From Sugiyamaella lignohabitans (lineage: Eukaryota; Ascomycota; Dipodascomycetes; Dipodascales; Trichomonascaceae): 64,000 nucleotides of DNA. Location of the stretch: the NCBI RefSeq assembly GCF_001640025.1, contig NC_031672.1:2976001-3040000 (forward strand). Reading direction: 5' to 3'. The notes below the pieces were generated by a model. The model was not told the origin of the DNA. It made no database searches and saw only the letters and a list, made by a program, of their open reading frames with translations. Position 1 is the stretch's first letter. Every line of letters begins with the position of its first letter. The position numbers and the translations under genes are program-made. Positions 13,333 through 63,962 of the stretch are shown in pieces.

Positions 13333-13393
13333 TGCCTCCGGCGGCTGGGGCTCCGCCCCAGACCCCGCTGCTCCTCTCGCTGCGCTCGAGTCG
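13333..13393 (+). repeat. GC-hairpin half-element (solo), 3' of IDP2
   Basis: Head TGCCTCCGG, core hairpin CTGGGGCTCCGCCCCAG, then the tail ending in CTGCGCTCGAGTCG. The head faces the IDP2 stop codon, 55 bp away. Confidence 0.9.
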
Positions 13394-13485
13394 GCCGTCT
13401 AGGGACCAGAGTAACTTGGATATGTGTGAGCTGGTTTTCATGTTGAGTTAACAGAGATGTGAATAAATACAGATCATTAGAAATG

Positions 13486-13765
13486 CTATTTTGACTCGGG
13501 AGAGGAGTCTGTAAGGGCAACTTTTGTACCCTTGAGAACGCCGAATGTTATGAGTGACAGACCAATCACTTTGACCAACGGTTTGCCAAACTGGATATAG
13601 AATGCTGCCTGGAATATTGTCAGTACCAGTGTGAGACTCAATTGATCACAATTAGAAACTTACATGCTTGGAGGGACCCTCAGGATGCTGTGAACTACTG
13701 TAAAATCTTGCACTTTGAAAACGCGGCCCCGCAGTCCTTGACAACCTTCTGTAAATCTGAATCAT
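13486..13765 (-). CDS. Small mitochondrial single-span membrane protein, two coding exons
   Basis: Exons 13765-13664 and 13608-13486 join to 74 residues. Donor GTAAGT and acceptor TTCCAG; the reading frame runs through the junction in phase 0. The N-terminus MIQIYRRLSRTAGPRFQSAR plus FYSSS is a classic mitochondrial presequence. The mature part has one hydrophobic span, FGKPLVKVIGLSLITFGVLKG. Size and shape suggest an inner-membrane subunit or assembly factor of a respiratory complex or the ATP synthase, but I do not recognise the family. A further upstream intron (donor near 13865, acceptor near 13814) seems to lie in the leader; its splicing would create an in-frame ATG across the junction, 16 codons upstream. 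The gene sits between two inverted hairpin half-elements (13333 and 14231). Confidence 0.65.
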
Positions 13766-14947
13766 TGTATCCGTAGTAGCTACAATGGCTTCTGCCCGTT
13801 GAATAATACCCACTGCAAATTCCACTCAGATTAGACTTTTGTCCAACTTCTTCCAAGGCAAACTTACTCGAATCAAGTGGTGATGTTGATACGCTGAGCC
13901 GCGATCCGCCAAATTGACATTTCCCACGCAGATCACTGCCAACTTAGGCCAGGGGTAGAACCACAAAACCGAGTCTTTCAGTTTCAGTTATAAAATAATC
14001 TATCAATATCACTTGATTATTCGCTCGGTCTATGACTCGTTCCAACAAAGACTCATCTGTGTAGTTTCTGGAATACTACTTACCGAGCGGTGTACATAAC
14101 CGCCCCCGTTGCATATTTTATCGCACCTCAACTTCTGATAATAATGACTAACCATCCCAAATTCCGGTTCTCATGATTCGACCATGGTCTTTAGACCCGG
14201 AAAAAAGTCCGGTCCGGCCCCCAACGGTGACTCCTGCGAAGCAGGAGCAACGGGATCTGGGGCGGAGCCCCAGCCGCCGGAGGCAGGTAGGGGTAGACCC
14301 ATATATATTGCAAGCTGGAGAAGATCAGGCAACCGGATTCAATGTAACATGTGCCAGGCTGACTAGGTACAAGGGCCAAGTTAAGCGTTTGACCTGATAA
14401 GGTTAAGGTTGGGCTAGGGCGGAGGTCGGAGTCCGGTTTAGTCACCGGCGTGGGATGCAGGACTGAATATGTTCAGGAAACGTCTGGGGGTTCGTAACCA
14501 GCCTGTTTTAGCGAACAAAGATAGCACAAGAATTCAAGAGGTTATGAAGGGTAGATTCTGGCAATCAGAGACCGCATACATGCAAAGGAAGTGGGAATCA
14601 TGAGACATTTATGACAGTCAGTTTTGATTGTGACTGTGAAGGATATGCAACAATTAATATAATTGTGCAGCAAAGCAGTGGAAAATCTCGCCTAAACCGT
14701 TAAGATCGCACTTATCTTGCAGAGAAAACCCCCACACATGTGCTTTACGAGTCCATTACGGCATTGCATCAGCACTGGCGTCGGTGCTGAATGGGTGGAT
14801 TTTGGGTCAGAATGGGGGGGTGCTTTTTTCTTTCTCTTCTTTTGTTTCTTCCCTTTACCTATATTTGATAGATTATTACTTAGACAGGTCGGCAATAGAA
14901 TCATCTCCATTAATGGAAAGAGAATATTCTTTTCGTTCCAAGCCATT
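13766..14947. other. Divergent promoter region with one hairpin half-element
   Basis: Upstream DNA shared by the minus-strand mitochondrial protein gene and the plus-strand DMT transporter. It holds a candidate 5' leader intron of the former (about 13815-13865), the half-element at 14231-14285 and a T-rich tract (14822-14860). No other gene was seen. Confidence 0.5.
14231..14285 (-). repeat. GC-hairpin half-element (solo), CTCCTGC-tail variant
   Basis: On the plus strand it reads from the tail hairpin CTCCTGCGAAGCAGGAG to the head CCGGAGGCA. The core is slightly altered (GGGATCTGG in place of GGGGTCTGG). Confidence 0.85.
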
Positions 14948-16390
14948 ATGAAAGTATCTACAGAGGTCGAAGCTCGGCCGTTGCTCAACGGAGATGATAC
15001 ACCATCATCATCAGTTCCGAACAGCCCTGTTACCAACGCTAAAAATCTCATAAAAACCAAAGATCGGATTATAGACAATACCTCGAGGACAAATCTCGAT
15101 GCCATTTTGCAACAACTAGAAGAGGGAGGGGGTAGTCGGTCCCCCAGTATAGACTTTAGTCGAGGAGATGTGGAATTAGGTGCTGATAGTAACTTGAAGG
15201 AGTATATCTTGACTAAGAGAACAAGCATACGAGCCAAAGTTGTGGAAATTAAGAATAGTCTGATCCATCAGAACACAGGTATCAAGCTCATGATGGCGGC
15301 TCAGATATTTGGGTCCGGTATGGCCGCAACCACTCGTCTGTTAGAAACCTCAACCGAACCTCCATTCAAACCATCTCAAGTTTTGTTTGCTCGAATGAGT
15401 ATAACATACGCTTGCTGTTTGGGGTATATGTTTTATAAGAGAGTGCCAGATCCTATTCTCGGTCCAAAGGGTGTACGCTTTTTGCTGTGTTTGAGAGGAT
15501 TTTTTGGATTTTTCGGAGTATTTGGGTTCTATCATGCTCTGATATACCTGGACTTGTCGGATGCCACGGTGATTGGGTTTCTTTGTCCGTGCGTCACCGG
15601 GTTTCTAGCATGGATATTTTTAGGTGAGGAATTTGGTTCTGTCGAGATAAAAGTGGGCATTGCTTCGCTGTTCGGAGTTATCGTAATTGCTCGGCCGACA
15701 TTTTTAATGGCAATCTTCAGCAATGGAGAGAGCAGTGATACTAGTACAGGCTCGGACGGAATCTCATCAGCTGGTCGTTTGTTTGGAGTTGCCATGTCTC
15801 TAGTCGGTGTTCTAGCATCAGCATTGACATTTGTAGTCATTCGAAAGATAGGAGACCGGGCACATTCGTTAATGTCAGTATCATATTTTGCTCTGTGGTG
15901 TGTTATTGTGTCGAGTTTAGCACTGATATTCATGCCTGGTGAGAGTCTGGTATTGCCACAAAACATGAAGCAGTGGGGACTCCTACTTGCGCTAGGAATG
16001 TTTGGATTCATATTCCAGTTTATGATGACAGCCGCCATTCAGCGAGAGAGCGCAGCGGTTGTCACCTCAATCAATTATACCGGAATCCTGTGGGCTCTAT
16101 TATGGGAAAGAGTAATCTGGGGACATGTCCCCGATTTGTTATCGTGGGTCGGCGGCTCATTCATTCTCTGTAGCGCCATCTGGATGGCATATAAAAAGTA
16201 CCACATGGCCAAAGCCAAGGAAATCCTGAAAGAAATCTCCGAAGACTACTCCTACGAGCTGCGAGACAACTACGATAACGAACCAGATGCCCAAGAAATA
16301 ATGGTTATAGACGAGGACGAAGACGACGAAGCCATCGAACTCCCGGTGGCCAGCACCCTATCTGACGTCTCACCAGCACCAAAGTCGTGA
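14948..16390 (+). CDS. DMT-superfamily (EamA) membrane transporter, YPL264C/YMR253C-like
   Basis: 480 residues from the ATG at 14948. The frame is open further upstream, but the extension is unlike the family. A hydrophilic N-terminus of about 120 residues (MKVSTEVEARPLLNG) precedes about ten hydrophobic spans in two EamA repeats. The first repeat includes FFGFFGVFGFYHALIYLDLSDATVIGF with CPCVTGFLAWIFLGEEF; the second ends with the matching INYTGILWALLWERVIWGHVPDLLSWVGG. The tail is acidic (DEDEDDEAIELP). Relatives in yeasts are uncharacterised drug/metabolite-type carriers, so the substrate is unknown. A complete composite hairpin unit begins 71 bp after the stop codon. Confidence 0.8.
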   Translation: MKVSTEVEARPLLNGDDTPSSSVPNSPVTNAKNLIKTKDRIIDNTSRTNLDAILQQLEEGGGSRSPSIDFSRGDVELGADSNLKEYILTKRTSIRAKVVEIKNSLIHQNTGIKLMMAAQIFGSGMAATTRLLETSTEPPFKPSQVLFARMSITYACCLGYMFYKRVPDPILGPKGVRFLLCLRGFFGFFGVFGFYHALIYLDLSDATVIGFLCPCVTGFLAWIFLGEEFGSVEIKVGIASLFGVIVIARPTFLMAIFSNGESSDTSTGSDGISSAGRLFGVAMSLVGVLASALTFVVIRKIGDRAHSLMSVSYFALWCVIVSSLALIFMPGESLVLPQNMKQWGLLLALGMFGFIFQFMMTAAIQRESAAVVTSINYTGILWALLWERVIWGHVPDLLSWVGGSFILCSAIWMAYKKYHMAKAKEILKEISEDYSYELRDNYDNEPDAQEIMVIDEDEDDEAIELPVASTLSDVSPAPKS

Positions 16391-16460
16391 TACAATGCAT
16401 TTACTTACTTTATATATATTTATATTCAATTCATTCGCTCTTTACACAGGGGAGACGGAA

Positions 16461-16599
16461 CTGCCTCCGGCTGCTGGGGCTCTGCCCCAGACCCCGTGGC
16501 TCCTGCTTCGCAGGAGATTGCTGGGACCGTATACGCCCGAGTCGAGCGCAGAGAGAGGAGCCACGGGGTCTGGGGCAGAGCCCCAGCTGCCGGAGGCAG
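16461..16599. repeat. Composite GC-hairpin unit (two inverted halves), 3' of the DMT gene
   Basis: Plus half 16461-16516 with tail CTCCTGCTTCGCAGGAG; a short spacer containing GCTGGGACCGT; then minus half 16538-16599 with the CTCGAG-type tail. Heads TGCCTCCGG face outward. Total about 139 bp. Confidence 0.93.
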
Positions 16600-16752
16600 T
16601 CCGTCCCCCCTGAGTTCATGCAGGGTCCACCAGGAGTGCATGCGGCATCAAATGTGCCTTACAGATGAGCGAAGGCAGATCTTCGTAACATCATCACCCG
16701 GTGGGGTTCTTTGCTGCTCAATTGATTCAACAAGCAACAAATAATTGGTAAT

Positions 16753-17472
16753 ATGGATTGTCGAAACGAAGACCACGATGACCATGGTCACGGCCATGGC
16801 GGACATGGACACGGCCATGATCACGATCACGATCACGTTCCTCCTCCAGACACAAATGCAGTCCAGTCTCTGTATCAGACTATCAACCATGACCACATAG
16901 TCACCCTCAATGAGAGTACTGTGGACTCTGGTAAAGAGGTTTTTAAGGAATGGGAGAAGAGATTGGATGTTTCTAAGATCCTGGAATCTGATGTAGACGA
17001 ACAATTGCTCATTCACGTACCATTCACAGGCCTGGTCCGACTTCATTCACTGCTAATTAGGACTACTAGTGACGACTACGCTCCAAAGACAATTAAATTA
17101 TTTAAAAACCGTGAGGATCTGGACTTTTCTACTGCGTCGGATCTGACTCCTACTGCTGCTTTCACACATCCATATGGCGTTGGTGGCGACGAGTCAGTGG
17201 AGTTAGAAGCCAGCAGCAACCGGACCATGGACGAAGAGGGCATTGCCGAGTACGCAGTCAACCGGGCCCATTTCTCGAACCTCACGAGCCTGACGCTTTT
17301 CATTGAAGACAACCACGGCGAGGACACCACCAAAATCCTCTACATTGGACTCCGTGGCGAATGGTCCAAAATGTCCCGAGCTCCTGTCGTGACCATGTAC
17401 GAGGCAGCTGCCAATCCCCGCGACCACAAAAACCTCGTCCCTGGCGAGCACTACGTATCCGAGAACCCGTAG
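16753..17472 (+). CDS. PITH-domain protein (PITHD1-like)
   Basis: 239 residues. The N-terminus is a His/Gly/Asp-rich segment (HGHGGHGHGHDHDHDH), also found in milder form in animal PITHD1. A full PITH domain follows (about 35-215): LNESTVDSGKEVFKEWEKR, ESDVDEQLLIHVPFTG, a variable loop, then DTTKILYIGLRGEWSKMSR and YEAAANPRDHK. PITH domains are found in thioredoxin-like TXNL1, which binds the proteasome, and in stand-alone PITHD1; the biochemical role of the stand-alone form is poorly defined. The His-rich tail could bind metal ions (inference). A composite hairpin unit starts only 29 bp after the stop. Confidence 0.88.
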   Translation: MDCRNEDHDDHGHGHGGHGHGHDHDHDHVPPPDTNAVQSLYQTINHDHIVTLNESTVDSGKEVFKEWEKRLDVSKILESDVDEQLLIHVPFTGLVRLHSLLIRTTSDDYAPKTIKLFKNREDLDFSTASDLTPTAAFTHPYGVGGDESVELEASSNRTMDEEGIAEYAVNRAHFSNLTSLTLFIEDNHGEDTTKILYIGLRGEWSKMSRAPVVTMYEAAANPRDHKNLVPGEHYVSENP

Positions 17473-17500
17473 TCACTAAATTGTGTGTTTATTAGGGTGC

Positions 17501-17639
17501 TGCCTCCGGCGGCTGGGGCGTTGCCCCAGACCCCATTTGCTCCTGCTTCGCAGGAGTTACAGTGGGATCTCGTCGTCCGACTCGAGAGGAGCGAGAGGAG
17601 CAGCGGGGTCTGGGGCGGAGCCCCAGCCGACGGAAGCAG
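17501..17639. repeat. Composite GC-hairpin unit, 3' of the PITH gene
   Basis: Plus half 17501-17556, with the core stem CTGGGGC/GCCCCAG kept but the loop changed to GTT, and tail CTCCTGCTTCGCAGGAG. The minus half is 17578-17639, with a diverged head (CCGACGGAAGCA) and a small insertion in the tail. It lies between convergent genes. Confidence 0.9.
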
Positions 17640-17750
17640 GCCACGACAGATTCAACAGAAATACAGCTTCATTAGATTCGTAAATCGTACACAAAACAAC
17701 ATAAGGACAAAGTGGTGGGTTATATAAATAAAGTAAAAGGTATCACATGT

Positions 17751-22215: not shown

Positions 22216-22338
22216 AGCGCTCGCGCAGCGAGCACAACCAGGTCCGGGCGGAGCCCGGCCGCCGGAGGCACGTCCGGGTCGTGGGTGTGCCTCCGGCGGC
22301 TGGGGCTCTGCCCCAGACCCCGTAGCTCGCTTCGCTCA
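22216..22338. repeat. Two GC-hairpin half-elements in head-to-head arrangement
   Basis: A minus half at 22216-22270 with the alternate core CCGGGC/GCCCGG and tail hairpin CTCGCTGCGCGAG, then a plus half at 22288-22338 with a standard core and a truncated tail (GCTCGCTTCGCTC). The heads face each other, opposite to all other pairs. It lies 50 bp outside the large inverted repeat. Confidence 0.85.
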
Positions 22339-22390
22339 GGCTTGGGGGTGGGTGACCGTGGACGTGGCAGGGGGAAGAAAAAAAAAAGTT

Positions 22391-23040
22391 CAGCACCTTC
22401 TGTTCACGCCTGGTCTCCCACGGCATTACTGATCAAGGCTCTCAGAGGCTTAAATATGATTGATCGGACGGGAAATCTTGTTTTACTCTGGATGTGGCCG
22501 AACTTGTGTGCTTTTTTTCTGGCGTTCGATACATGTTATACAACTTAGGTAAATTCAGGGGGTGTTATGCAGCTGTAGATTTGTGGTTTAAACTCAGTGA
22601 CAAAATCGGCCCACTCAATTGACAGCTGAACGGTGAAGAGCTTTAATTTTATTATTCAGTATCGAGTATCGAGGTTTAGTGAAATACATTGTTGTGTTTT
22701 TTTACGGGTGTAATATTTCCCTCGTAAAGTGAACAGGTTGGTGCGTTAGGGATTTTGATGATGGACTGGTGCTGTTAGACAAATCATTGAATTGACGGAT
22801 AAAAGTGGCCAGTTTACTGTATAGCAGGAGTCTAAATGAGGTCTCAGTGGACCTTCTTTATATAAATGAGGTATACTGTAAGATATACTGTGTGGTTGAT
22901 TAGGACGTTAGTTAACTCTGCTGCCAGTTACGGCCATATCCAGAGTAAAACAAGATTTCCCGTCCGATCAATCATATTTAAGCCTCTGAGAGCCTTGATC
23001 AGTAATGCCGTGGGAGACCAGGCGTGAACAGAAGGTGCTG
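22391..23040. repeat. Long near-perfect inverted repeat (110-bp arms, 430-bp spacer)
   Basis: Arm 1 (22391-22500) and arm 2 (22931-23040) are reverse complements with one mismatch in 110 positions. Each arm is preceded on its outer side by an A/T homopolymer run (about A11 at 22379-22387 and T9 at 23050-23058). The 430-bp interior has no ORF of note; it contains two copies of a TAAATGAGGT word near 22832 and 22863. It could be a non-autonomous foldback element or a recent local inverted duplication. A transcript across it would fold into a long hairpin. Confidence 0.9.
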
Positions 23041-23213
23041 TAACTCATCTTTTTTTTTGACTTTTACTGCCGAAGTATTGCTTCGTGGTTAGATACCTCT
23101 TGCGATGCGCAGACCGAGAGAAGCTGTTTACTGGTGCTGTACCCTAGCTGCCTGAGGCATTCTGGGCTTCGCTGAACATCAAAGAAAAATTATTTTTATC
23201 CCGTTATTACTAC

Positions 23214-24317: not shown

Positions 24318-25534
24318 ATGAAATATTTTTGATGAGAAAGAAAAATGAGAACTGATAGTAAAATTAAGAATGGAATGGATGGCAATGGCGATGGCAAATT
24401 CTAACTCATGACTAGAAGTCTATCCAGACGTTTTTATAGTTAACGGGACTAGCTTCGTCGCCTAGTGCTGGCTGTACAGCCCGTTGCCGATCTTCAATCG
24501 ACAGGGACATTTTGGCGATTAGGTAAGCGCATATTGGCAACTTGACACCTAATTAAGCTTCTTCTATGCATATCCGTAAATTAAGCTCGCATGGAATGCA
24601 CTGCCCGTCTAAACCCCGGGCCTTATCGCCGCTAAGCTTCTTGTCTCTCTCTCTTGCTCAGCCAACACTACATTTTGGCAATTAACCCTTCTCGTCAACA
24701 GGCATACCAAACCACGGTGACTCACCTCCACCAGCCACAAACTTGCCTTTGGCCGAGCTCGGAGCTGGCCACACTGGCCAGTCAGGGTCAAATCCATCCG
24801 GTCAAACTTGTTTGATGCGGTGACGGACTGCCTCCGGCGGCTGGGCTCCGCCCAGAACTGGTTGTGCTCGCTTCGCGAGCTGCTGGGACCGTCTGGGTTG
24901 GGTGAAAAGGCCGGGGAGTGAGCTGTAATGCACTTTCACCCCCATAAAATCACCCCTGCAGAACCACAAACAGACCCGCACCCCGCGCCCGACTCGAGCG
25001 AAGCGAGAGGAGCCACGGGGTCTGGGGCGGAGCCCCAGCCGCCGGAGGCAGAGGTCCCCAGTCATGTGACTGGGGCCCGAGTCAAGAGAGATGCATATGG
25101 CGTGAGGTGCGGTGAGCGGATAATAGTGGTTGTTTGGAGGATGGTGGAGTGAGTGAGGGTGAATTCGTTGGGAAAGTTGCCGGTGGTGATGAGAATGATG
25201 GGGCTGGCGATGTTTATATAGGTCGGGTAGGAAAACTAAGGAGGAACAGAGTGGCCTGGGTCGGGGTCTGTAGCATGTGAATATGCAGGTGGACCTGCGA
25301 CCCCTGTTCCTGTTCGATATAGAAATGCGTGCCTAGCAGGATAAACGGTTCATACAGGCCAGGACTCCGACAGAGAGACTATCTGGGTGCATGAACTGCA
25401 ACCCGAGCAGTGGTGGACAACGGGGGTCACAAATCGGCACGAGAAATTTGTTTCTGGTCCGCTAGCTCATGACTGAATCTTATACCCGACTGAGTCAAAT
25501 CGAGTAAAATTCAGAAAACACACTAATTTGCAAG
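24318..25534. other. Divergent promoter region with composite hairpin unit
   Basis: 1.2 kb between two divergent genes. Apart from the hairpin unit at 24829-25050 I see no gene. Confidence 0.5.
24829..25050. repeat. Expanded composite GC-hairpin unit
   Basis: Plus half 24829-24880 has a shortened but still perfect stem CTGGGCTCCGCCCAG (one G and one C lost together) and tail CTCGCTTCGCGAG. The minus half is 24990-25050. The spacer starts with the conserved GCTGGGACCGT but is expanded to about 110 bp. Confidence 0.88.
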
Positions 25535-28500
25535 ATGGTCGCGGAACTAATTGACGGAACATCGATTGCTCGGTAAGTCAAAGTGCCGTTTGGCCGCTAC
25601 TGGTCCATCTAGGCAGGCATAGTACTAACAGCGGGTGAATAGTGAGATTCGCGCTAGAATCAACACCGAGATCAAACATGAGCAGTCGCTCAAGTCGAGA
25701 TTCCAGCCATCTCTTGTCATTATCCAGGTCGGCAGTCGTCCTGATTCTTCGACTTATGTTCGTATGAAACTCAAAGCTGCTGTCGAGGCTAATATCACTT
25801 GTGAATTGAAGAGTCTTCCCGAGGATATTTCCGAGGTCGAGCTTATTCAACATGTCAAGGCTTTGAACGATGATCCTGCTGTTCATGGTATTCTTGTCCA
25901 ATTGCCTTTGCCAAAGGGTATCAATGAGGCTGCTGTCACTGAATCGGTTATTCCTGAGAAGGATGTAGATGGTTTTGGTACTGTCAATATCGGAGAATTG
26001 GCCAAGAGAGGTGGAAACCCCCTTTTCGTTCCCTGTACTCCTAAAGGTATTCTGGTACTTTTGAAGGAATCTAAAGTCGAGATCGCTGGTAAGACTGTTG
26101 TTGTTCTTGGCCGTTCTGATATTGTTGGAAGTCCCGTTTCATATTTGTTAAAGAGTGAAGATGCTACTGTTACAGTTGTTCACTCCAAGACTAGAAACAT
26201 TCCTGAAATCGTCAAGACTGCCGATATTGTCATTGCTGCCATTGGCCAACCCGAGTTTGTCAAGGGAGACTGGTTGAAGCCAGGTGCTGTTGTCATTGAT
26301 GTCGGAACTAATTACATTAGTGACGAGACCAAGAAATCTGGGCAACGACTTGTTGGTGATGTCGAGTTCTCGACTGCTTCAGAGGTTGCTTCTAAGATCA
26401 CTCCTGTTCCAGGTGGAGTTGGTCCTATGACTGTTGCAATGCTTCTTGAGAATGTCTACTCTTCAGCCAAGAGATTCTACGAGTTAGAAAGCAAGCGAGG
26501 CATTAACCCCTTACCTTTGAAGGTTCTTACACCCGTTCCTTCTGATTTTGCCATTTCCCGTGCTCAAAAGCCCAAGCACATCAGTCAAGTTGCCAGTGAA
26601 ATCGGTATCTTGTCTGGCGAATTAGAACAATACGGAGCTCACAAGGCCAAGGTTCAATTGAGCATTCTTGACCGTCTTAAGCACCGTCAAAACGGTAAAT
26701 ACGTTCTTGTTACCGGTATCACCCCTACACCATTGGGTGAAGGTAAATCCACCACCACTGTGGGTCTTGTCCAGGCACTTGGTGCTCACTTGAATAAGAT
26801 GGCTTTCGCCAATGTTCGTCAGCCCTCTATGGGCCCCACTTTCGGTATCAAGGGTGGTGCTGCCGGTGGTGGTTACTCTCAAGTGATTCCCATGGACGAA
26901 TTCAACATGCATTTAACCGGTGATATCCATGCTATTGGTGCTGCCACCAACTTGTTGGCTGCTGCTATTGATACCCGTATCTTCCACGAAAACTCACAAA
27001 AGGACGGTCCTTTGTACCGCAGACTTGTGCCTGCTAAGAAGGGAGTCAGAAAGTTCTCGCCAGTCATGTTCCGCAGACTCAAGAAGCTTGGAATCGACAA
27101 GACGAACCCTGACGACCTCACCAAAGAAGAAATCGCCAAGTTTGCCAGACTCGACATTGACCCCGAAACCATCACCTGGAGACGTGTGGTCGACTGTAAC
27201 GACCGTCACCTCCGTGGAATCACCATTGGCCAAGCCCCTACCGAGAAGGGCCAAACCCGTGAGACCGGTTTCGACATCACCGTTGCCAGTGAATGTATGG
27301 CCATTCTCGCCCTTTCCAACAGTCTTGAAGACATGAGAGAGCGTCTTGGCCGCATGGTCGTTGCTTCCAGCCGAAGCGGCGAGCCCGTCACCTGTGACGA
27401 CATCGGCTGTGGAGGTGCCTTGACCGCTCTTTTGAAGGACGCTATCAAGCCCAACTTGATGCAAACTCTTGAAGGTACGTATTGGCTTTTGTGACGGTGC
27501 CTCCGGCGGCTGGGGCTCTGCCCCAGACCCCGTAGCTCCTCTCGCTGCGCTCGAGTCGTTGCGTCGACGGTCCCAGTCATCTCCTGCGAAGCAGGAGCTA
27601 CGGGGTCTGGGGCAGAGCCCCAGCCGCCGGAGGCAGTGCCACCCACCACTACGATTCTAACTGATTCCAGGTACACCTGTATTTGTCCATGCTGGACCTT
27701 TTGCCAATATTAGTATTGGCGCCAACTCTGTTTTGGCGGATAAGATTGCTCTTAAGCTCGCCGGTACTGAGGAGGACGAGGGTGAGGACAGAGCTGGATT
27801 CGTCGTTACTGAGGCCGGTTTTGATTTCACTATGGGTGGTGAACGTTTCTTCAACATCAAGTGCCGATCTTCTGGTCTGGTGCCCGATGTTGTTGTCATT
27901 GTTGCTACTGTTCGTGCTCTTAAACTCCACGGAGGTGGTCCTGATGTCACTCCTGGCGTGTCTCTTCCTGATGTGTACCTTCAGGAGGACACCGAACTCC
28001 TTCGTAAGGGCTGTGCCAACCTTGCTAAGCACATTGAGAATGCCAAGTCATACGGCCTTCCTGTTGTTGTTGCTATCAACAAGTTTGTTTCCGATACTGA
28101 TGCTGAACATGCTGTTATCCGTGAGGAGGCCATCAAGGCAGGTGCTGAGGATGCTATTGTCAGTAACCACTGGGCCGAGGGTGGTAGTGGTGCTGTCAAG
28201 CTTGCTGAAGGTGTTATCAAGGCTTCGCAATCGAGCCGTGACTTCAAGTTGCTTTACAGTGCTGAAGATAACTCGGTTGAGGACAAGCTTAACATCATTG
28301 CTCGTCAAATGTATGGAGCTGAGAAGATCGAGCTCAGCGAGTTGGCCAAGTCTAAGGTCGAGACTTACACTAGACAAGGATTTGGCAACTTGCCAATCTG
28401 TGTTGCCAAGACTCAATACTCGTTGTCCCATGACCCTGCTTTGAAGGGACGTCCTTCGGGATTCACCGTGCCCATTCGTGATGTCAGAGCTTCCGTTGGT

Positions 28501-28852: not shown

Positions 28853-28926
28853 TGGTCCCTGGCGGGATCGAACCGCCGATCCCCGCGTTATTAGCACGGT
28901 GCCTTAACCAACTGGGCCAAGGAACC
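28853..28926 (-). tRNA. tRNA-Ile (anticodon AAT)
   Basis: A 74-nt cloverleaf on the minus strand. The acceptor strand begins GGTTCCT and ends with AGGGACC plus discriminator A. The D-arm GCCCAGTTGGTTAAGGC holds box A, the anticodon loop is CTAATAA, and the T-loop GGTTCGATCCC is box B. No intron. Identical in sequence to the copy at 38445-38518. A T5 run follows the 3' end. Confidence 0.95.
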
Positions 28927-29414: not shown

Positions 29415-30149
29415 ATGTCCACAACGGTAGCATCACAGGCGTCAATTGACGACAAAACGTTCACAAAGGCATTTTTGCATCTGTTGACTGTAAAGGTTTC
29501 CGAACCTCCACTTGCCGCCAACTATGTTGGAGAGCAAGTCTGGTCTGTATTGGTATGTACTCCAAGTCATTGAATCAAAGGGGTAGCATCTGGTTTAATA
29601 AATCGACTCAAAGTTGATATCTAACAAGAATTCTAGCCCTTACCAGCCATGCCACAGGCTAAAAAGAAAACCCTGCAATCAGATGATTCTAAAACCGAAT
29701 CGTCTGTTAGCGTTACTCTGAAGTCTATTCGAAACCCCAAGTTCGTCATTAGTTTTGATGATGTTCCTGCAAATGATACCGTGCTCAGTATCAAAGAAAG
29801 ATTGGTGGGTGATCCAGATGGACCACTAGCAGAAGGTGGATACGCAACCTCGAATGTGCGACTTCTCATTAAAGGCAAGGTCATTAGCGACTCCAAAACG
29901 GTAGGAGAAGTTAGTACCGCAACAGAAGGATCTGATGAGTTATCTGTTTCCTTTGTAGCAATGATTTCACAACCCGACAAAGAAGCTATTTCGAATAAGA
30001 AAGAGGTGGGATCAGAAGAAGAACCAGAACCCGTGCTGCCAACAGTCCTGTCAGAGGCAGCTTGGAACGACATCCACACCACTCTACAGAAACATCTATC
30101 ACATGATGAAGCCAGAGTAGCGCTTCAAAAGTTTAAATCTACTTTTTGA
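29415..30149 (+). CDS. GET5: Get5/Mdy2-like ubiquitin-like protein of the GET pathway, two exons
   Basis: Exons 29415-29552 and 29637-30149 join to 216 residues (212 in S. cerevisiae). The intron has donor GTATGT, a CTAAC branch site and a CTAG acceptor. The N-terminal helical region with FTKAFLHLL fits the Get4-binding domain. The middle (about 68-150) is a ubiquitin-like fold: VTLKSIRNPKFVISFDDV, then TVLSIKERL and VRLLIKGKVISDSKTV. The C-terminus WNDIHTTLQKHLSHDEARVA matches the homodimerisation domain. In the family, Get4-Get5 receives tail-anchored proteins from Sgt2 and hands them to Get3 for ER insertion. It is convergent with MRPL3, with one hairpin half-element between the stops. Confidence 0.82.
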
Positions 30150-30210: not shown

Positions 30211-30272
30211 TCTCCTCCGGAGGCTGGGGCTCTGCCCCAGACCCCGTTGCTCCTCTCGCTACGCTCGAGTCG
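30211..30272 (+). repeat. GC-hairpin half-element between convergent GET5 and MRPL3
   Basis: The head is slightly altered (CTCCTCCGGAGG) and the core hairpin is intact. It lies 62 bp after the GET5 stop and 73 bp after the MRPL3 stop, where it could serve both transcripts. Confidence 0.88.
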
Positions 30273-38444: not shown

Positions 38445-38518
38445 GGTTCCTTGGCCCAGTTGGTTAAGGCACCGTGCTAATAACGCGGGGATCGGCGGTT
38501 CGATCCCGCCAGGGACCA
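38445..38518 (+). tRNA. tRNA-Ile (anticodon AAT), second copy
   Basis: 74 nt, identical to the minus-strand copy at 28853-28926. The anticodon loop is CTAATAA, with no intron. The 5' flank CCAAGATC and the 3' trailer TACTTTTTG are also shared with the other copy. Confidence 0.96.
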
Positions 38519-38796: not shown

Positions 38797-38895
38797 TGCT
38801 CCGTGCCAGGCTCGAACTGGCGATCTTGGGATTACTTACTCTTGTAGAGTAATCATTCTATGAGACCCACGCTCTACCAACTGAGCCAACGGAGC
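38797..38895 (-). tRNA. tRNA-Met (anticodon CAT, elongator type) with 26-nt intron
   Basis: Acceptor GCTCCGT pairs with ACGGAGC, followed by discriminator A. D-arm GCTCAGTTGGTAGAGC; mature anticodon arm TGGGT-CTCATAA-TCCCA; T-arm GCCAGTTCGAGCCTGGC. Removing 26 nt between positions 37 and 38 gives a 73-nt tRNA resembling yeast elongator tRNA-Met, including the T-T pair closing the anticodon loop. The T-arm does not look like an initiator. A T6 terminator follows. Confidence 0.9.
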
Positions 38896-39389
38896 CGCTT
38901 GCGGAAATAAGTGCTTTTTATTCTACATGAGCAATTTTCTCAGGGTTGGGGTGACCCGTCAATATTGGCTAGTTCTTTCCGTATTTAATTTTTTTAGCTG
39001 TTTTGTAGCTATTTAACTAATATCCTGTAACATGTTTCTATTTCGATAGTTTTTTTATATTTTCAATCCTCTTGTTGGCCAGTATTTAGAGCTGTTTAAG
39101 GTTACGGCAATTGCGACCCATATTTTGCTGTTGTATTTATTTCTGCCGGGGAGTGGAAGGGTGAAAATTCAGTCTTAATCGATCCAACCAATCAAGGGTT
39201 GCTTCAGACTAGGATTTCTACCGGTCGGAACAGATATAGCCAGAGGATAACTCTAGCAGACATGTCAGGGATTCTGTCTAAAGCTGATAGGGGTTGCGTC
39301 TATACGCAACTTAAAAGAATTTACCAGCGAGGCTATTCAATTTGCTAAAGATATGAACGGAGGCCGATGCTTGGACGATAACCGGTAGC
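38896..39389. other. Intergenic region between tRNA-Met and POB3
   Basis: About 500 bp of AT-rich DNA. No gene was recognised. Confidence 0.5.
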
Positions 39390-39481
39390 TTCTCTCGCTG
39401 CGCTCGAGCAGTGCCTCGGGGTGTGGTTGCTCGCGAAGCGAGCACAACGGGGTCTGGGGCAGCGCCCCAGCCGCCGGAGGC
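39390..39481. repeat. Truncated composite GC-hairpin unit, 3' of POB3
   Basis: A fragment of a CTCGAG-type tail on the plus strand (39391-39408), then a minus half (39427-39481) whose tail hairpin is CTCGCGAAGCGAG and whose core loop is changed (plus-strand CTGGGGCAGCGCCCCAG). The head faces the POB3 stop codon, 64 bp away. Confidence 0.85.
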
Positions 39482-39544
39482 CGCCAGACTACAACTAACA
39501 AAACAGGCAGATACAGGAGAGTCATCAATTTAATATATATAAAA

Positions 39545-41335: not shown

Positions 41336-41492
41336 CCTGTCTATGTCTACTTCTCACACTCTCGGCACACGCTGTTCAGGAAGCAATTAACTCTCGAACC
41401 TGCTCTCAACTTCGCGTATTTTTCAATCACTCACACGCGTTCTAATACCGCTATACCGGGTAAGAAGTCACGTGATATAGATCTGAGTGTGA

Positions 41493-41541
41493 CTCCGGCA
41501 ACCGGGCTCCGCTCGGATCTGGTTGTGCTCGCTTCGCGAAC
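41493..41541 (+). repeat. Diverged GC-hairpin half-element
   Basis: Degenerate head (CTCCGGCAA), core CCGGGCTCCGCTCGG with one wobble pair, then CTGGTTGTGCTCGCTTCGCGAA. It belongs to the CCGGGC-core subfamily. Confidence 0.7.
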
Positions 41542-41698
41542 GGCCGAGATCGTGGGGGGAGGGCGGTAGATAGGACAGGGAGTGGCAATGTACTGGGTAC
41601 TTTTAGTTTGTATTATGGGATGTGTAATGGAGAACATAGTTTAATGCAGGGTCTCCCAGAGTGCTGCTGCAGGGACAGAGTACCCCTGCCCCCAGGCA

Positions 41699-41751
41699 AG
41701 CTCGCAAAGCGAGCACCACCAGGTCCGGGCGGAGCCCGGCCGCCGGAGGCC
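41699..41751 (-). repeat. GC-hairpin half-element, CCGGGC-core subfamily, 3' of the YIM1-like gene
   Basis: The core CCGGGC/GCCCGG replaces CTGGGGC/GCCCCAG. The tail hairpin is GCTCGCAAAGCGAGC. The head faces the stop codon at 41785, 34 bp away. Confidence 0.85.
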
Positions 41752-41784
41752 CACACACACAGAAATAAAAAGAATTAAATTAAA

Positions 41785-44952: not shown

Positions 44953-46139
44953 TCTTCCAAATTGTCTCCTGCTGTTAGTCGCGTAATAAGTCAGGATAGT
45001 TGACAACCAGGTTTCTTGCATATCATGTTGATCCTTCTAAAGGAGCTACCAATCGCTTTTAAGAGACTTGGTAGTAGTAGATAACATCCAGAACTTGACC
45101 AAGACATGGGATATCAAGCTGGTGCCTTGGAGTTTATCTCTGAAATATAGTTTTTCTTGAATTGTCACGGATTCACTGTCCTTTCAGCTTCTTCACTGAT
45201 ATTATATTCTATGACCAGTAGCAACGATGCCCGAAATCTACTCTGCATTGTGACTAGCCCATGACTAGGAAAAAAGATAGCACTAGACTGTTTTTCATAG
45301 CATGATATCATTTATATTATATTATAAGTGCGAGAGACTTGACCCTTTATTTCCTCAGCCAAAAGCTGTCAGCTGTGGCCGGAATATACTATCCTGCATG
45401 AACTACACCTACGACATGCAGGTGTACTTTCTGCAGGTATTACGAGCTTATATATCAGGACGTAAGGTGGATGAGTTTTGTTACTATCTACTGGGCCTGC
45501 GTGCCTCCGGCAGCTGGGGCTCTGCCCCAGACCCCGTTGCTCCTCTCGCTGCGCTCGAGTCGAGCATCTCGGATCTCCTCTTTCGTATACTGAGATCCGT
45601 TCAGGAGTCAAAGGTCGCCTATGGCGGTTTGTCCTCATTTGATTCACATCCTAATCTCCACTCATTATCCTTTGTGAGGTTATGAAAAATAAAAGCACCT
45701 TCTTTACTTTGTAAATGAAGCAATACTTGCTTGCTAAGCTGTATCAATTCCTCATGAAAATACTGCTATTATTTTCAGGCTGTGAACTTGGAGTAAAGGC
45801 TCGTATCCTACGCCATATAATTGCGAGAATGAATGTTTAGAGGGAAGATTTTATATTGTAGATCATCATGTCATAAGACTGGTTCATACTTGTCCTAACA
45901 ATAATTTTGAGAAAAAAAATAGGGTAAAACGACAGGTTAAATGCTCCCTTCTCATATTTATAAGCATGGATCTACCATCAGGGTCTAACGATCATCACTG
46001 TGCTAATGACAGCAAGAGCTGTACACCAGATCTTTCAGCTTCTTGGAAGCAGAAGACTCCTGAGTAGTGATGCATGTACCTACTGAAGAAGTAGCAGAGT
46101 TAAAATCTATATAAACTGTCCGATGAAACAAAAATCCTG
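44953..46139. other. Gene-poor region upstream of APS2
   Basis: About 1.2 kb of AT-rich DNA with one solitary hairpin half-element (45502-45562). No gene was recognised. Confidence 0.5.
45502..45562 (+). repeat. GC-hairpin half-element (solo)
   Basis: Head GTGCCTCCGGCAG, standard core with TCT loop, CTGCGCTCGAGTCG tail. No gene end is nearby. Confidence 0.9.
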
Positions 46140-48260: not shown

Positions 48261-48321
48261 CGACTCGAGCGGAGCGAGAGGAGCCACGGGGTCTGGGGCA
48301 GAGCCCCAGCCGCCGGAGGCA
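48261..48321 (-). repeat. GC-hairpin half-element (solo), 3' of DUR3
   Basis: CTCGAG-type tail, standard core with GGGGCAGAGCCCC. The head faces the DUR3 stop codon, 122 bp away. Confidence 0.92.
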
Positions 48322-50593: not shown

Positions 50594-51991
50594 TGTGCTA
50601 TAAACTGTTTCTTAGATGTCTATACTATTCGATATTCAAGTTATTTAGGTAACTATTTATATAAATGGAAAGATCGTTAATCGCCGACCATACTAGACAG
50701 AGCATTCATGTCAGGGATGCAAAATAAAATTTCATGACCGGCCAGATTCGGCTTGTGTGTTGCTGACGAGATAGCTGATCGTTTCAACCGTCAGATCCAC
50801 CAACCACACTTTTCCGAGGGTGTCAGCGGCGATCAGGTCTGAAAGTACAATAAGATAGAACATGTCGATCCATTAATGGGATTCGCCCGAGGAGAATGAT
50901 TGACATAAACTTTATTAAGAAATTATTAAAACACAATTTACAATCTGAAAAATTGGAATTTCAACTGATAACTCCAAAAAAATGTATTACTTGGAAAATA
51001 TTTTCTCCTTCTTGTAACCATTGTGCATTCTTGATATGACTACGGGTATAAATTCTACCAATTTGTAAGTCAATTGTCTGTCCATAGCAGTTGGATGTGC
51101 CTGACAAGTCTCCGACATGTCTCACTGATACATAATTTAATGCAGTTTCCAGTTGAATTGAGATTTTTTTTGACAACTAGGGCGCGCGCGTCAGCCGGAA
51201 ATATGTGACCGACACCCCTATTTCATATCCTCTCAACTACTATTGGATGGATGCGACATCAAATCAGTCTGCGATAGCAACGCGATGCAGTATGTCATGA
51301 TGAGCGTCAACACGAACCAGGCAGCGATCGACGGTTTATTGCATGATAAGATAACGTCGATGCAGATGATTGGACGATAGGCATTGCCAGAGATAAGATA
51401 CTGATTGTGCGTTATCGGAGGTGGGACTTGTTCTCCCGAGCTTTCGGATGGTATGTATTCACCAGGGTATAGTTTCAAACCTTAAGCAGGGGTCATTTAC
51501 GCATTGAGCTGTAAAGATACTCCCAAACGAGCTGCCTGACATAACGTGCCAAGTCATCAGGTCAAACGACCGGTCCCTACATTTCAGGCAATATCTGCAT
51601 ATCACCAGGGCCTGGTTACCCCCGCGCATCTTACGAAAAGCTTGTTATCTAATATCTTCATTAAACGGGTCGTGGGGGTTTGAGGCGGGGGTCGGCCTCC
51701 GGCGGCTGGGGCTCTGCCCCAGACCCCGTAGCTCGCTTCGCTCGTTCCATTAAAGCTGGTTTCTTTGTAATAATTGACGGGTCTCCGGGAAGTGGAATGG
51801 TTGGTAATTTAATGTGCGGTATTAGTAATTCATTGTATATTGGAAATTTACAGCCAGTGTCGAGATAATCATGATCGACAGGGTTCACACTGCACGCGGC
51901 TGAACTAAGTTTTGAGATCGCGAGATGATCTCCAGATCCAGACTTTAATATCAAATATTAATATTTGTTTTCCAGGCTAAAGGTGGATCAA
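50594..51991. other. Divergent promoter region with one half-element
   Basis: About 1.4 kb between DUR3 and the NDP-glucose dehydratase gene. It holds the half-element at 51694-51744 and an AT-rich stretch at 50920-51000. No gene was recognised; small minus-strand ORFs (50961-51176, 51233-51478) have no recognisable features. Confidence 0.5.
51694..51744 (+). repeat. GC-hairpin half-element upstream of the dehydratase gene
   Basis: Head GGCCTCCGGCGG, standard core, short tail GCTCGCTTCGCTCG. With the inverted half at 53400-53461 it brackets the dehydratase gene. Confidence 0.88.
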
Positions 51992-53399: not shown

Positions 53400-53461
53400 C
53401 GACTCGAGCGAAGCGAGAGGAGCAACCAGGGTCTGGGGCGGAGCCCCAGCCGCCGGAGGCA
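53400..53461 (-). repeat. GC-hairpin half-element downstream of the dehydratase gene
   Basis: Standard tail and core with GGGTCTGG. The head points away from the dehydratase stop (185 bp upstream) and towards the minus-strand phosphatase gene end, 151 bp away. Confidence 0.9.
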
Positions 53462-55806: not shown

Positions 55807-55867
55807 CGACTCGAGCGAAGCGAGAGGAGCAGCGGGGTCTGGGGCGGAGCCCCAGCCGCCGGAGGCA
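55807..55867 (-). repeat. GC-hairpin half-element (solo)
   Basis: Standard head, core and CTCGAG-type tail. It is embedded in a C-rich stretch (55738-55803) and has no neighbouring gene end. Confidence 0.9.
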
Positions 55868-57094: not shown

Positions 57095-57234
57095 TGCCTC
57101 CGGCGGCTGGGGCTCCGCCCCAGACCCCGATGCTCCTCTCGCTGCGCTCGAGTCGTTTTCGTCCACGATCCCAGCAATCACCTGCGAAGCAGGAGCTACG
57201 GGGTCTGGGGCGGAGCCCCAGCCGCCGGAGGCAG
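57095..57234. repeat. Composite GC-hairpin unit
   Basis: Plus half 57095-57154 (CTCGAG-type tail), a spacer with GATCCCAGCAATCA, then minus half 57180-57234 (CTGCGAAGCAGG tail). About 140 bp, in the middle of gene-poor DNA. Confidence 0.93.
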
Positions 57235-57714: not shown

Positions 57715-57775
57715 TGCCTCCGGCGGCTGGGGCTCCGCCCCAGACCCCGCTGCTCCTCTCGCTGCGCTCGAGTCG
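57715..57775 (+). repeat. GC-hairpin half-element (solo)
   Basis: Standard head, core with TCC loop and CTGCGCTCGAGTCG tail. Confidence 0.9.
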
Positions 57776-58212
57776 GGCGTCGGGGGCCCTGGATGCTGGG
57801 AGTCCAGAATCTAGTCGTGACTGTTTGTCGCCAGGGGCTCTTTTAAGCTTTGGAGGTACGCTATTCTGGGACTTTGGGGTACATTATTTGTATAGGATCT
57901 TTTCACTTATGTTTATACTGAGCCCTCGTCCATTTCTCAAACATCAACCAGTCGGTAAATGTGCTACTTATTTCGAGAACCCACACTGCAGGTTACAGTA
58001 GTAGATATTGTGATCTTACGAGACAGAGACTTTCTTCTTGCGAAGTTACAGATCAATCAAGAAGAACGTATATATACTAATGGAGACCAGTATTATGACT
58101 GCGATAATCATAGTATACAAAAACCCACGAATGGTTCCCAGTAGAGGGTCACGGAACTTCGGCAGCAGAAGCCAATCCCGGACCAGAAAATGCTACTGGC
58201 CCCCCCGACGCC

Positions 58213-58274
58213 CGACTCGAGCGCAGCGAGAGGAGCAGCGGGGTCTGGGGCGGAGCCCCAGCCGCCGGAGGCAG
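58213..58274 (-). repeat. GC-hairpin half-element (solo)
   Basis: Inverted relative to the half at 57715, about 440 bp away. Standard core and tail. Confidence 0.9.
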
Positions 58275-60529: not shown

Positions 60530-60564
60530 TCGAACTACTGATGTGAACTCTCCCGGTGCGGGTG

Positions 60565-60826
60565 TGCCTCCGGCGGCTGGGGCTCCGCCCCAGACCCTGG
60601 TTGCTCCTCTCGCTTCGCTCGAGTCGGGCGTCGGCGTTCCCTGTTTATCTGTTTATTTATACGGTCTTGGCTCACTGGTGGTGGTGACAGAAACTGCCCG
60701 GCCGGGACGAGCCAAGTCCGCCAAGCGGAGCCAAGCACCCAAGCAGCCCCACTTCCCCCACGCCCGACTCGAGCGAAGCGAGAGGAGCAACCAGGGTCTG
60801 GGGCGGAGCCCCAGCCGCCGGAGGCA
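60565..60826. repeat. Expanded composite GC-hairpin unit, 3' of VCX1
   Basis: Plus half 60565-60627 and minus half 60765-60826, both with CTCGAG-type tails. The spacer is about 137 bp. The left head is 36 bp from the VCX1 stop. Confidence 0.9.
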
Positions 60827-62556: not shown

Positions 62557-63735
62557 ATGTCGTCAGCTCCTACATTATTCGGTGTTCCTCTGAAATACCT
62601 GTCACTGGTCACATTGACTGTACAGAACTCATCACTGATTCTGGTGATGCACTACTCCAGAGTCATGCCGGGATATACTGCAGACTCTAGATACTACGCA
62701 TCCACTGCTGTGTTATTAAACGAAATCATCAAGTTCGTTTTCTGTACCATTGTATGTGTTTATCAACAAGGATTCAAATCTGCTTTTGAAGATGTGTTTT
62801 CTGGCGATTGCTGGAAACTGTCGATTCCTGCTTTCCTATACACCCTGCAAAACACCCTGCAATATGTGGCAGTCTCTAATTTAGACGCTGCCACTTTCCA
62901 AGTCACCTATCAATTGAAGATTCTGACTACTGCATTTTTCGCGGTTACTATTCTGCACAAAGACTTGTCGAAGCTTCAATGGCTGTGTTTGGTATTATTG
63001 ACGTTTGGAATTGGTTTGGTTCAAATGCCTCCTGAGGCATTCAATGGCTTAGTGGCTTTTGTTATTGAGAGTGCCACTACTGCTGTTGGCAAGGGCTCGC
63101 CAGTTGCTGAGGGTCCTGGGTCTACTAAACCTGCTGGCGGAAGTGCCAGCAAGCTCGGAGCCAAGGCTGCCAAGGTAGTAAGAGAAGTTGCTGCTGCCGT
63201 TGTCGAGAAGGAGGAAATGAACGGACTTATTGGTTTTGTTGCCGTGTCCATTGCTTGTATCCTTTCCGGTTTGGCTGGTATCTACTTCGAGAAAGTGCTC
63301 AAGGGATCTAAGAAGGTTTCTCTGTGGACTCGTAACGTGCAATTATCCATGTTCTCGCTGATTCCCGCTCTTTTCCTGGGTGTTCTTGCTAAAGACGGAA
63401 GCAAGATTGCCGAGAACGGGTTCTTCCACGGCTACAACAACGTCGTCTGGGCTGCCATCTGGCTGCAAGCCATTGGTGGTATTGTCGTAGCTCTCTGTGT
63501 CAAGTTCGCCGACAACATCGCCAAGAACTTCGCGACCTCCATCTCCATCCTCATCTCCTTCGTGGCCAGCGTCTACTTCTTCGACTTCGCGGTCCACGTC
63601 AATTTCCTCATCGGAGCCACCGTCGTCGTCGGCGTCACCTACCTCTACTCGCTCTCCCCGGCCTCTGCCCGACGCCCATCCTCCAGCGACGAAGAGTACA
63701 AACCACTCCCCGATCAGCGATCCCGCTCCGACTAA
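62557..63735 (+). CDS. Golgi nucleotide-sugar transporter (UDP-galactose/UDP-GlcNAc type, SLC35A)
   Basis: 392 residues with about ten transmembrane segments. Family marks are LVTLTVQNSSLILVMHYSR in TM1, LNEIIKFVFC, then LYTLQNTLQYVAVSNLDAAT and FQVTYQLKILTTAFF (the conserved nucleotide-sugar segment), and GLAGIYFEKVLKGSKKVSLW with NVQLSMFSLIPALF in the second half. A low-complexity Gly/Ala/Lys loop (about 175-220) is larger than usual. It resembles S. pombe Gms1 and Kluyveromyces Mnn2-2 most. It imports UDP-sugar into the Golgi in exchange for UMP; the exact sugar cannot be read from sequence. It has a long T-rich leader and a composite hairpin unit 88 bp after the stop. Confidence 0.9.
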   Translation: MSSAPTLFGVPLKYLSLVTLTVQNSSLILVMHYSRVMPGYTADSRYYASTAVLLNEIIKFVFCTIVCVYQQGFKSAFEDVFSGDCWKLSIPAFLYTLQNTLQYVAVSNLDAATFQVTYQLKILTTAFFAVTILHKDLSKLQWLCLVLLTFGIGLVQMPPEAFNGLVAFVIESATTAVGKGSPVAEGPGSTKPAGGSASKLGAKAAKVVREVAAAVVEKEEMNGLIGFVAVSIACILSGLAGIYFEKVLKGSKKVSLWTRNVQLSMFSLIPALFLGVLAKDGSKIAENGFFHGYNNVVWAAIWLQAIGGIVVALCVKFADNIAKNFATSISILISFVASVYFFDFAVHVNFLIGATVVVGVTYLYSLSPASARRPSSSDEEYKPLPDQRSRSD

Positions 63736-63822
63736 ACCACCCCACTATGGGGTTTAATTTAATTTAGAGGCTGAACACCTCAGCACGTAATATACCTTAA
63801 TACTCTACTTCTGGCCGGGGTG

Positions 63823-63962
63823 TGCCTCCGGCGGCTGGGGCTCCGCCCCAGACCCTGGTTGCTCCTGCTTCGCAGGAGTTGGCTGGGACCCGACACGAAA
63901 CGACTCGAGCGCAGCGAGAGGAGCCACGGGGTCTGGGGCAGAGCCCCAGCCGCCGGAGGCAG
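63823..63962. repeat. Composite GC-hairpin unit, 3' of the nucleotide-sugar transporter
   Basis: Plus half 63823-63878 with tail CTCCTGCTTCGCAGGAG, a spacer with GGCTGGGACCCGACACGAA, then minus half 63900-63962 with the CTCGAG-type tail. Flanks share GGGGT outside both heads (as reverse complement), so the inverted repeat extends a few bases further. Confidence 0.93.

Follow-up and report, generated by a model that had tools for sequence, protein, structure and literature searches.

A genome-wide family of GC-rich hairpin elements in the yeast Sugiyamaella lignohabitans and its bacterial counterparts

A stretch of 64,000 nucleotides from the nuclear genome of the yeast Sugiyamaella lignohabitans (the window; positions 2,976,001-3,040,000 of contig C1) carries copies of a family of short GC-rich hairpin elements that is real, abundant and genome-wide. 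In form the family is like the inverted doublets of bacterial repetitive extragenic palindromic (REP) sequences known as REPINs, but by the defining features tested it is not a REPIN. The unexpected part is that its head, TGCCTCCGGCGGC, is shared between the yeast nuclear family and bacterial repeats. We regard it as an evenly balanced question whether these are short non-coding hairpin elements that were spread by insertion, moved in trans and shared horizontally between bacteria and yeast. To our knowledge REP-like hairpin repeats are a bacterial phenomenon tied to the REP-associated tyrosine transposases (RAYTs); a nuclear family, and carriers in which no RAYT is recognisable (the yeast and three of four bacteria), suggest an undescribed way of moving hairpin DNA and transfer between domains. 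Because the carriers are patchily distributed, the enzyme can be found by contrast with near relatives free of the repeat, and the copies found in introns are a natural test of how stem-loops shorten effective intron length.

The genome searched comprises 15,932,016 bases in four contigs of 2.3-5.9 Mb. In the part of the genome description drawn on here, strain CBS 10342 has a genome of 16.0 Mb in four chromosomes, its 5S genes are dispersed and 5% of its genes contain introns (PMC5499181). Anatomy was studied in a 264-kb sample, made up of the window and two 100-kb stretches, which contains 188 heads at up to seven substitutions; in all counts of position, genes are open reading frames called without annotation.

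Abundance of the family

Local matching of the head in the window gave 35 matches, seven of which (at 17541, 22328, 27538, 27595, 39442, 51734 and 57193) are opposite-strand echoes, leaving 28 half-units; three Markov shuffles of the window gave none. The core hairpin CTGGGGCTCCGCCCCAG, at up to three mismatches, gave 52 strand-matches, representing 25 element places and one unrelated place (4119), against a mean of 0.04 in shuffled sequence. Across the whole genome the 35-nt head, at up to three mismatches, was found 3165 times on the forward and 3211 times on the reverse strand, and the exact 13-mer TGCCTCCGGCGGC 2918 and 2889 times, with no match to the reversed control in either case.

A first-pass annotation had described about 29 copies of a half-unit from 13.3 kb to 64 kb, around one per 1.7 kb, and the count, the extent (13333-63961) and the density are borne out, as are the head, core hairpin and linker that it gave. 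It had proposed a genome-wide search, which was run with the 35-nt head and returned thousands of copies, so the family is not confined to the window. Its other statements held in part. The second hairpin-like tail exists, not as a single type but as one of three hairpins; none of the 28 half-units lies in a recognised gene-like exon, as stated, but the copy within an intron at 27498-27635 had been overlooked; and half-units do occur as such, yet 112 of the 188 heads form inverted pairs of less than 200 bp.

Matches of the element to known RNA families were restricted to two microRNA families, both below their cut-offs. In the portions consulted of open-licence PubMed Central (PMC) papers on palindromes of yeast nuclei, on eukaryotic REP/RAYT, on introners and on repeats shared between domains, this family is not described, and the head strings occur only in papers on other topics, as judged by title and the start of the abstract. 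A word search of the available text of two papers on related yeasts (PMC12232646, PMC13130702) found no palindromic repeats.

Anatomy of the half-unit and the doublet

A half-unit consists of the head TGCCTCCGGCGGC, a core hairpin (C)TGGGGC-NNN-GCCCCA(G) that takes in the head's final C, a linker ACCCCG or ACCCTGG and a second hairpin, so that the order in short is head, hairpin, GACCC, second hairpin. The second hairpin is of type L (CTCCTGC-TTC-GCAGGAG), type R (CTCTCGC-TNC-GCTCGAGTCG) or type X (GCTCGC-TTC-GCGAGC), and the heads of the sample fall into 106 R, 54 L, 14 X and 14 unassigned. Among the 56 inverted pairs of less than 200 bp, 41 join one L to one R. Pair lengths range from 41 to 195 bp, the 41-bp pair being a head-to-head fragment, and 38 fall at 135-144 bp, 35 of these L-R. 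The typical doublet is an inverted element of ~138 bp with sharp TGCC...GGCA ends. Within these 38 pairs identity is 94-96% in the heads and 87-88% in the second hairpins, but only 63% in the centre and 56-57% in the outer flanks, compared with 53% for shuffled centres. Arms of 11 R-R pairs were slightly more alike than random R units (score 0.746 against 0.679).

Predicted for single-stranded DNA, the fold of the doublet at 63823-63961 (139 nt) is a single rod of about -61 to -63 kcal/mol (z about -10), whichever strand is taken, whereas for a lone 61-nt half-unit the gain over shuffles is slight (z -1.28 and -0.78). In all 95 copies with an intact R stem the loop reads TNC (54 TTC, 27 TGC, 9 TCC, 5 TAC), which is GNA on the opposite strand. 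The core loop, read on the bottom strand, begins with a purine in 187 of 188 heads and is of GNA type in 122. Loops of the AGA and AGC types also close through sheared pairs. As a statistical test the loop bias is weakened by the inheritance of subfamilies. GNA loops on G-C stems form exceptionally stable, nuclease-resistant DNA mini-hairpins, according to the section used of PMC4686876.

Variant copies in the window (41490-41751, 22219-22270 and 24829-24902) have a core stem CCGGGC/GCCCGG or CTGGGC/GCCCAG, with both arms changed together, and possibly represent an older subfamily. A general excess of hairpins was rejected: outside the heads there are 41 stems of at least 7 bp with 3-nt loops against 20 expected, and the GAA and AGC cases listed are in part decayed members.

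Ends, flanks and facing pairs

There is no sign of a target-site duplication. Among 61 pairs of less than 300 bp, 35 had no matching end base and 20 had one, as in shuffles, and just two had three or more matching bases compared with ~3.5 in shuffles. A wider search for direct matches around 55 pairs found a few more long matches than shuffles did, but at no consistent position. What marks the outside of the element is G: the 20 nt flanking the heads on the outside have 19 runs of at least five G or C per kb against 0.95 per kb elsewhere, and 67 of 71 are G on the head strand. When one is inverted, left and right flanks are also somewhat more alike than shuffled flanks. An origin of the G-rich flanks from telomere repeats was dismissed, the contig ends inspected having no GGGGTC repeat and carrying other hairpins. 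Pairing of the outer flank with the internal GACCC linker was likewise discarded: the consensus sequences are complementary, but the result is the same when partners are shuffled among copies, so individual copies do not covary.

Where unpaired heads are neighbours at a distance of 200-900 bp, most face inward (16 inward, 5 outward, 1 in the same direction). That the longer inward-facing pairs are themselves a family of larger elements was considered and rejected. Of 23 such pairs of 200-3000 bp, 19 have interiors with no other match in the sample and four have one (two of these to rRNA genes or other elements), and one pair (C1 82745/83087) consists of two half-units, each in an intron of its own.

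Position relative to genes and introns

Doublets are concentrated just downstream of genes. With frames of at least 150 aa, 23 of the 56 pairs start within 100 bp after a stop codon, nine lie between intron signals and 24 elsewhere; with frames of at least 200 aa, 53 of the pairs had an assignable position, and in 23 of them the distance from the preceding stop is 4-86 bp. Of 9982 random intergenic points, 745 have a stop no more than 150 bp away. Unpaired heads (72 of 76 placed) show a direction, the TGCC end facing the gene in 18 and facing away in two of those within 150 bp of a gene edge. The order of L and R relative to the gene is without bias in 3' untranslated regions (UTRs; 8 LR, 7 RL).

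The intron test asked for a donor at most 45 nt before and TAAC...AG at most 90 nt after the element. Such signals surround nine pairs (112 orientations) compared with 10 of 6000 random positions, and four of 76 unpaired heads. Without the element the nine introns would measure 48-97 nt; the donor lies 12-42 nt before the element and the branch point 15-42 nt after it. Because both sit outside the element in unlike flanks, it seems to have entered existing introns.

Exon joins were read for five introns in four genes. In the window, the intron 27475-27670 holds the element 27498-27635, and the upstream exon, ending in LEG, joins the next exon of what we take to be a C1-THF-synthase-like protein. 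The exons of a SAPS-domain protein (L027) join ...ID to AQKLIPSLI across an element-bearing intron, and at C2 51285 the exons join Y to AEIVKVPDMAESITEG of a presumably KGD2-like protein. The gene at sample C1 82690-83170 (genome C1:1082690-1083170), which we assume to be ITPase-like, has two introns with one half-unit each, in opposite directions, and joins VTG-NKNKLKEV and AAKL-IGGPVIVEDT. From this last example it is clear that half-units enter singly and that two of them facing inward are not necessarily a single element.

A strict signal pattern found eight ordinary short introns, where chance would give ~2, and five elements are surrounded by these strict signals too; a large share of the introns of this yeast may therefore carry a copy. 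Modelled as RNA, the element in the intron 27475-27670 forms a single rod, with the donor on one side of it and the branch point on the other, and this predicted folding may be the reason that copies in introns are tolerated.

Copies in bacteria and viral contigs

The exact 20-mer TGCCTCCGGCGGCTGGGGCT was found in nine stretches of a prokaryotic collection. Five continue into a hairpin closing on CCCCA(G), four of those then into AGACCCC; the other four stretches do not. With a 19-mer at up to three mismatches, carrier counts far exceed those of the reversed control: Solidesulfovibrio aerotolerans (Thermodesulfobacteriota) has 244 copies (control 6), Polymorphobacter multimanifer (Sphingomonadales) 91 (control 12), a Sphingomonadales metagenome-assembled genome 326 (control 10) and a Myxococcota metagenome-assembled genome 192 (control 37). 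The host assignment of the last two, which are metagenome bins, is less sure. The four genomes with non-matching 20-mer stretches gave 24, 7, 17 and 15 against controls of 22, 14, 5 and 10, the third exceeding its control.

At the best-scoring carrier loci, found with a query ending before the loop, 31 distinct exact heads led to 28 hairpins, 26 of them followed directly by GACCC. Bacterial copies also form inverted pairs, of ~97-326 bp. Of 65 heads, 32 are no more than 150 bp from a stop on the TGCC side, and 22 have one on the inner side as well. Their outer flanks are A/G-rich rather than made of G-runs. Distribution among relatives is patchy. Among 198 genomes of the phylum of S. aerotolerans the exact 18-mer occurs in that carrier (116) and one other (8) only. 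In the class of the third carrier listed above (385 genomes) the full pattern is present in the carrier alone, and in its order (118 genomes) there are 138 exact 13-mers in the carrier and 0-4 in the others. The first-pass annotation had considered the yeast elements close in form to bacterial REP and bacterial interspersed mosaic elements (BIMEs), and that closeness is strengthened, since the unit of head, hairpin and GACCC is a high-copy repeat in several bacteria.

The full head pattern occurs in five stretches on four IMG/VR contigs. One contig (L077, 407-534) has an inverted pair of the bacterial repeat between terminase-like genes, in surroundings that by eye are phage-like. At position 732 of the stretch L080 the same TGCCTCCGGCGGC head leads into a different hairpin (CCAAAGGGG...CCCCTTTGG) and AATCCC; this relative hints at a wider bacterial superfamily. 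Plasmid and phage collections gave one weak match to a Roseivivax plasmid (37 query bases) and none to phages, and a sphingomonad copy had no match among plasmids.

The search for an enzyme

The first-pass annotation had named a match to a known transposon family with an encoded transposase as grounds for abandoning its reading; no encoded transposase has so far been tied to the element. In the yeast genome DDE_3 had no match and DDE_1 (pogo/Fot1-type) had two, at C2:1705346-1705858 and C1:5904871-5905413, in open frames of 800 and 974 aa. The Helitron N-terminal domain PF14214 had no match in the yeast, but had none in the control genomes either. The Y1_Tnp search (PF01797), whose control matched in 5 of 14 genomes, E. 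coli among them, found two matches in S. aerotolerans; its results in the yeast and the other carriers are given below.

Likeness to known systems

In the extracts of PMC3116915 and PMC2817692 used here, REP, REPIN and BIME sequences are short, high-copy, non-coding extragenic palindromes whose inverted doublets fold as one hairpin, and in all of this the yeast family is like them. The head is not: REP has GT(A/G)G (PMC2817692, in part) where the yeast element has TGCCTCCGGCGGC. The yeast elements further differ in that no Y1_Tnp gene was found, in being nuclear and eukaryotic and in often being intronic. REPIN singlets are also markedly more decayed than doublets in the source as far as consulted, whereas unpaired yeast units are not. 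REP proper with a RAYT is rejected for the lack of a Y1_Tnp match in the yeast and of a GT(A/G)G head. The REP/BIME-like reading of the first-pass annotation survives for copy number, extragenic position and inverted doublets, and fails on the head and the associated Y1 transposase.

Miniature inverted-repeat transposable elements (MITEs) share with the yeast family terminal inverted repeats, small size, very many copies and a position near genes, but the yeast element has no target-site duplication, occurs as half-units alone and has so far had no related transposase tied to its ends. Introners are likewise repeat families recurring inside spliceosomal introns. The difference is that the yeast element does not supply the intron boundaries, donor and branch point being outside it in unlike flanks. 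Helitrons and the IS200-IS605 group also have terminal hairpins and no target duplication, which fits single-strand transposition, but no Y1_Tnp was found in the yeast. The palindromic GC clusters of yeast mitochondria are GC-rich intergenic hairpins, patchy across species and of unclear origin, in the parts of PMC5499181 and PMC4478555 that were available; the present elements differ in being nuclear and composite.

How the elements may have spread

It is likely that something acting in trans spread the elements. In the account that we favour, at about even odds, an enzyme supplied in trans would recognise the element folded as a single strand, probably the one whose loops are of GNA type, and would insert it beside G-rich DNA in non-coding regions that are transcribed. 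In introns and 3' UTRs copies would survive because the rod, once folded away, keeps the splice signals near each other, and the element with its enzyme, or the enzyme's preference, would have moved horizontally between bacteria and this yeast lineage. We infer the enzyme, the direction of transfer and present mobility, the last from the pattern of copies. Only tentatively do we extend this to the fuller statement that a hairpin element of bacterial type, mobilised as a single strand by an undescribed enzyme, passed between bacteria and the yeast nucleus and in the yeast multiplied to thousands of copies, entering a large part of the short introns and many gene ends.

A number of observations weigh against movement by such an enzyme. 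No mobilising enzyme was found: neither the yeast nor three of the four bacterial carriers gave a Y1_Tnp match. Insertion is something that we infer, since no empty site came to light. In the core stems of the main family, 22 of 1316 pairs are altered and none of the 22 is compensated, so that covariation lends no support. Unpaired half-units are nearly as conserved as doublets (0-1 mismatches in 64 of 76 unpaired against 95 of 112 paired heads). The DNA that they flank is for the most part single-copy in the sample, and the mobile unit may therefore be something other than the doublet. Instead of a preferred target, the outer G-tracts may be an eroded outer arm of the element. There are 24 heads inside open frames of at least 150 aa. 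Two of these frames were followed, both supported by Pfam: in that of L027 the element lies between splice signals and the exons join, while in a MYST-family acetyltransferase (L011 5407-8217, minus strand) splice signals flank the element, yet the frame stays open through it, possibly giving a retained-intron protein. On the bacterial side, single heads near stops are less directional (17 outward, 9 inward), the core loops are not of GNA type, and the viral contigs contain neither the exact 20-mer nor the R-hairpin pattern.

Convergence, in which unrelated GC-rich hairpin repeats reached the same head by chance or by a biophysical rule, would account for the bacterial match without transfer. 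GC-rich genomes make GC-rich words common, four of the nine scanned 20-mer matches lack the unit, and bacterial loops and flanks are unlike those of the yeast. We think it unlikely: the 13-nt head, the hairpin arm and GACCC agree although GACCC lay outside the query (26 of 31), and copy number is high in carriers and near background in most sampled relatives. On these comparisons horizontal sharing appears likelier than convergence. The elements may instead have no enzyme of their own, hairpin DNA being copied when the host replicates and repairs its DNA, by gene conversion or by template switching from one inverted arm to the other, as mitochondrial GC clusters perhaps are. Heads so much more alike than centres and flanks, which are near the shuffled level, and the slightly greater likeness of the arms of R-R pairs would suit this, and template switching that homogenises inverted arms has been described in yeast (PMC8604942, in part). 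It is nevertheless improbable in view of the fixed outer end, the fixed L-R doublet and the concentration near stops and in introns, and head identity in three bacterial phyla would not be expected from undirected repair.

A MITE family of a yeast cellular DDE cut-and-paste transposon, derived by internal deletion with inverted ends and with its transposase elsewhere in the genome, finds some backing in the sharp TGCC...GGCA ends, the ~138-bp length and the two DDE_1 matches. The want of a target-site duplication in 61 pairs, the half-units that occur alone and the failure of DDE_3 to match make it a distinctly improbable explanation, and it leaves the bacterial copies unaccounted for. That the elements are not selfish DNA but functional 3'-end elements, under selection for transcription end or mRNA protection, seems to us very improbable. 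It is favoured by the 23 of 53 placed pairs just after a stop, by the 18 to 2 orientation of unpaired heads and by the 32 of 65 bacterial heads with a stop on the TGCC side. Yet splice signals enclose 9 of 56 pairs and another 24 are neither there nor just after a stop, L and R order is unbiased in 3' UTRs, 22 of 65 bacterial heads have a stop on the inner side too, and position may reflect tolerance rather than use.

Elements of the window and minor observations

The copies in the window are listed below.

Table 1. Hairpin elements in the window, in window coordinates. Inner ends are approximate for the half-units at 13333, 14225, 22288, 30212, 45502, 48261, 51694, 53400 and 55807.
Element	Position	Strand	Remarks
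R half-unit	13333..13393	+	55 bp after stop of isocitrate-dehydrogenase-like gene
L half-unit	14225..14285	-	faces the 13333 copy; inward-facing pair of 953 bp
Full L-R element, 137 bp	16462..16598	.	72 bp after stop of open reading frame 14738-16390; flanks partly inverted
Full L-R element, 138 bp	17501..17638	.	29 bp after stop of PITH-domain gene
Variant half-unit, core stem CCGGGC/GCCCGG	22219..22270	-	
Half-unit	22288..22348	+	
Inward-facing pair, 222 bp	24829..25050	.	variant half-unit (+, core CTGGGC) and R half-unit (-)
Full R-L element, 138 bp	27498..27635	.	in intron 27475-27670 of the presumed C1-THF-synthase-like gene
R half-unit	30212..30272	+	63 bp after stop of open reading frame 29649-30149 (putative gene)
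Half-unit, apparent decayed partner	39383..39482	-	63 bp after stop of POB3/SSRP1-like gene
Inward-facing variant pair	41490..41751	.	left decayed, outside the 28; right 34 bp after a stop
R half-unit	45502..45562	+	
R half-unit	48261..48321	-	122 bp after stop of sodium:solute symporter gene
Half-unit, short tail	51694..51740	+	
R half-unit	53400..53461	-	151 bp after stop of HAD-family gene
R half-unit	55807..55867	-	
Full R-L element, 139 bp	57095..57233	.	
Inward-facing R pair	57715..58273	.	arms identical over 73 nt; interior single-copy in sample
Inward-facing R pair	60565..60826	.	36 bp after stop of Na/Ca exchanger gene
Full L-R element, 139 bp	63823..63961	.	88 bp after nucleotide-sugar transporter stop; one hairpin, DNA -60.9 kcal/mol, z -10

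The window also contains two 5S rRNA genes in inverted orientation amid protein genes, at 22385-22505 (minus strand) and 22926-23046 (plus strand). Its tRNA genes are at 28853-28926 (minus), 38445-38518 (plus) and 38797-38895 (minus); they include a near-identical inverted pair for tRNA-Ile(AAT), and the third is longer and probably contains an intron. Elsewhere on the contig, C1:1057556-1057801 and 1062297-1062543 form a direct repeat of 247 bp with 99.6% identity and a spacing of 4.7 kb, perhaps the long terminal repeats of a retrotransposon. Arrays of AT-rich hairpins with GC-TTC-GC loops (for example a stem end TAGGC-TTC-GCCTA) are shared by contig ends, where they occupy the first ~250 bases of four end stretches and are repeated in tandem in a further one (~2000-3000). 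Across six contig-end stretches there are 20 hairpins with a GAA/TTC loop and a stem of at least 8 bp.

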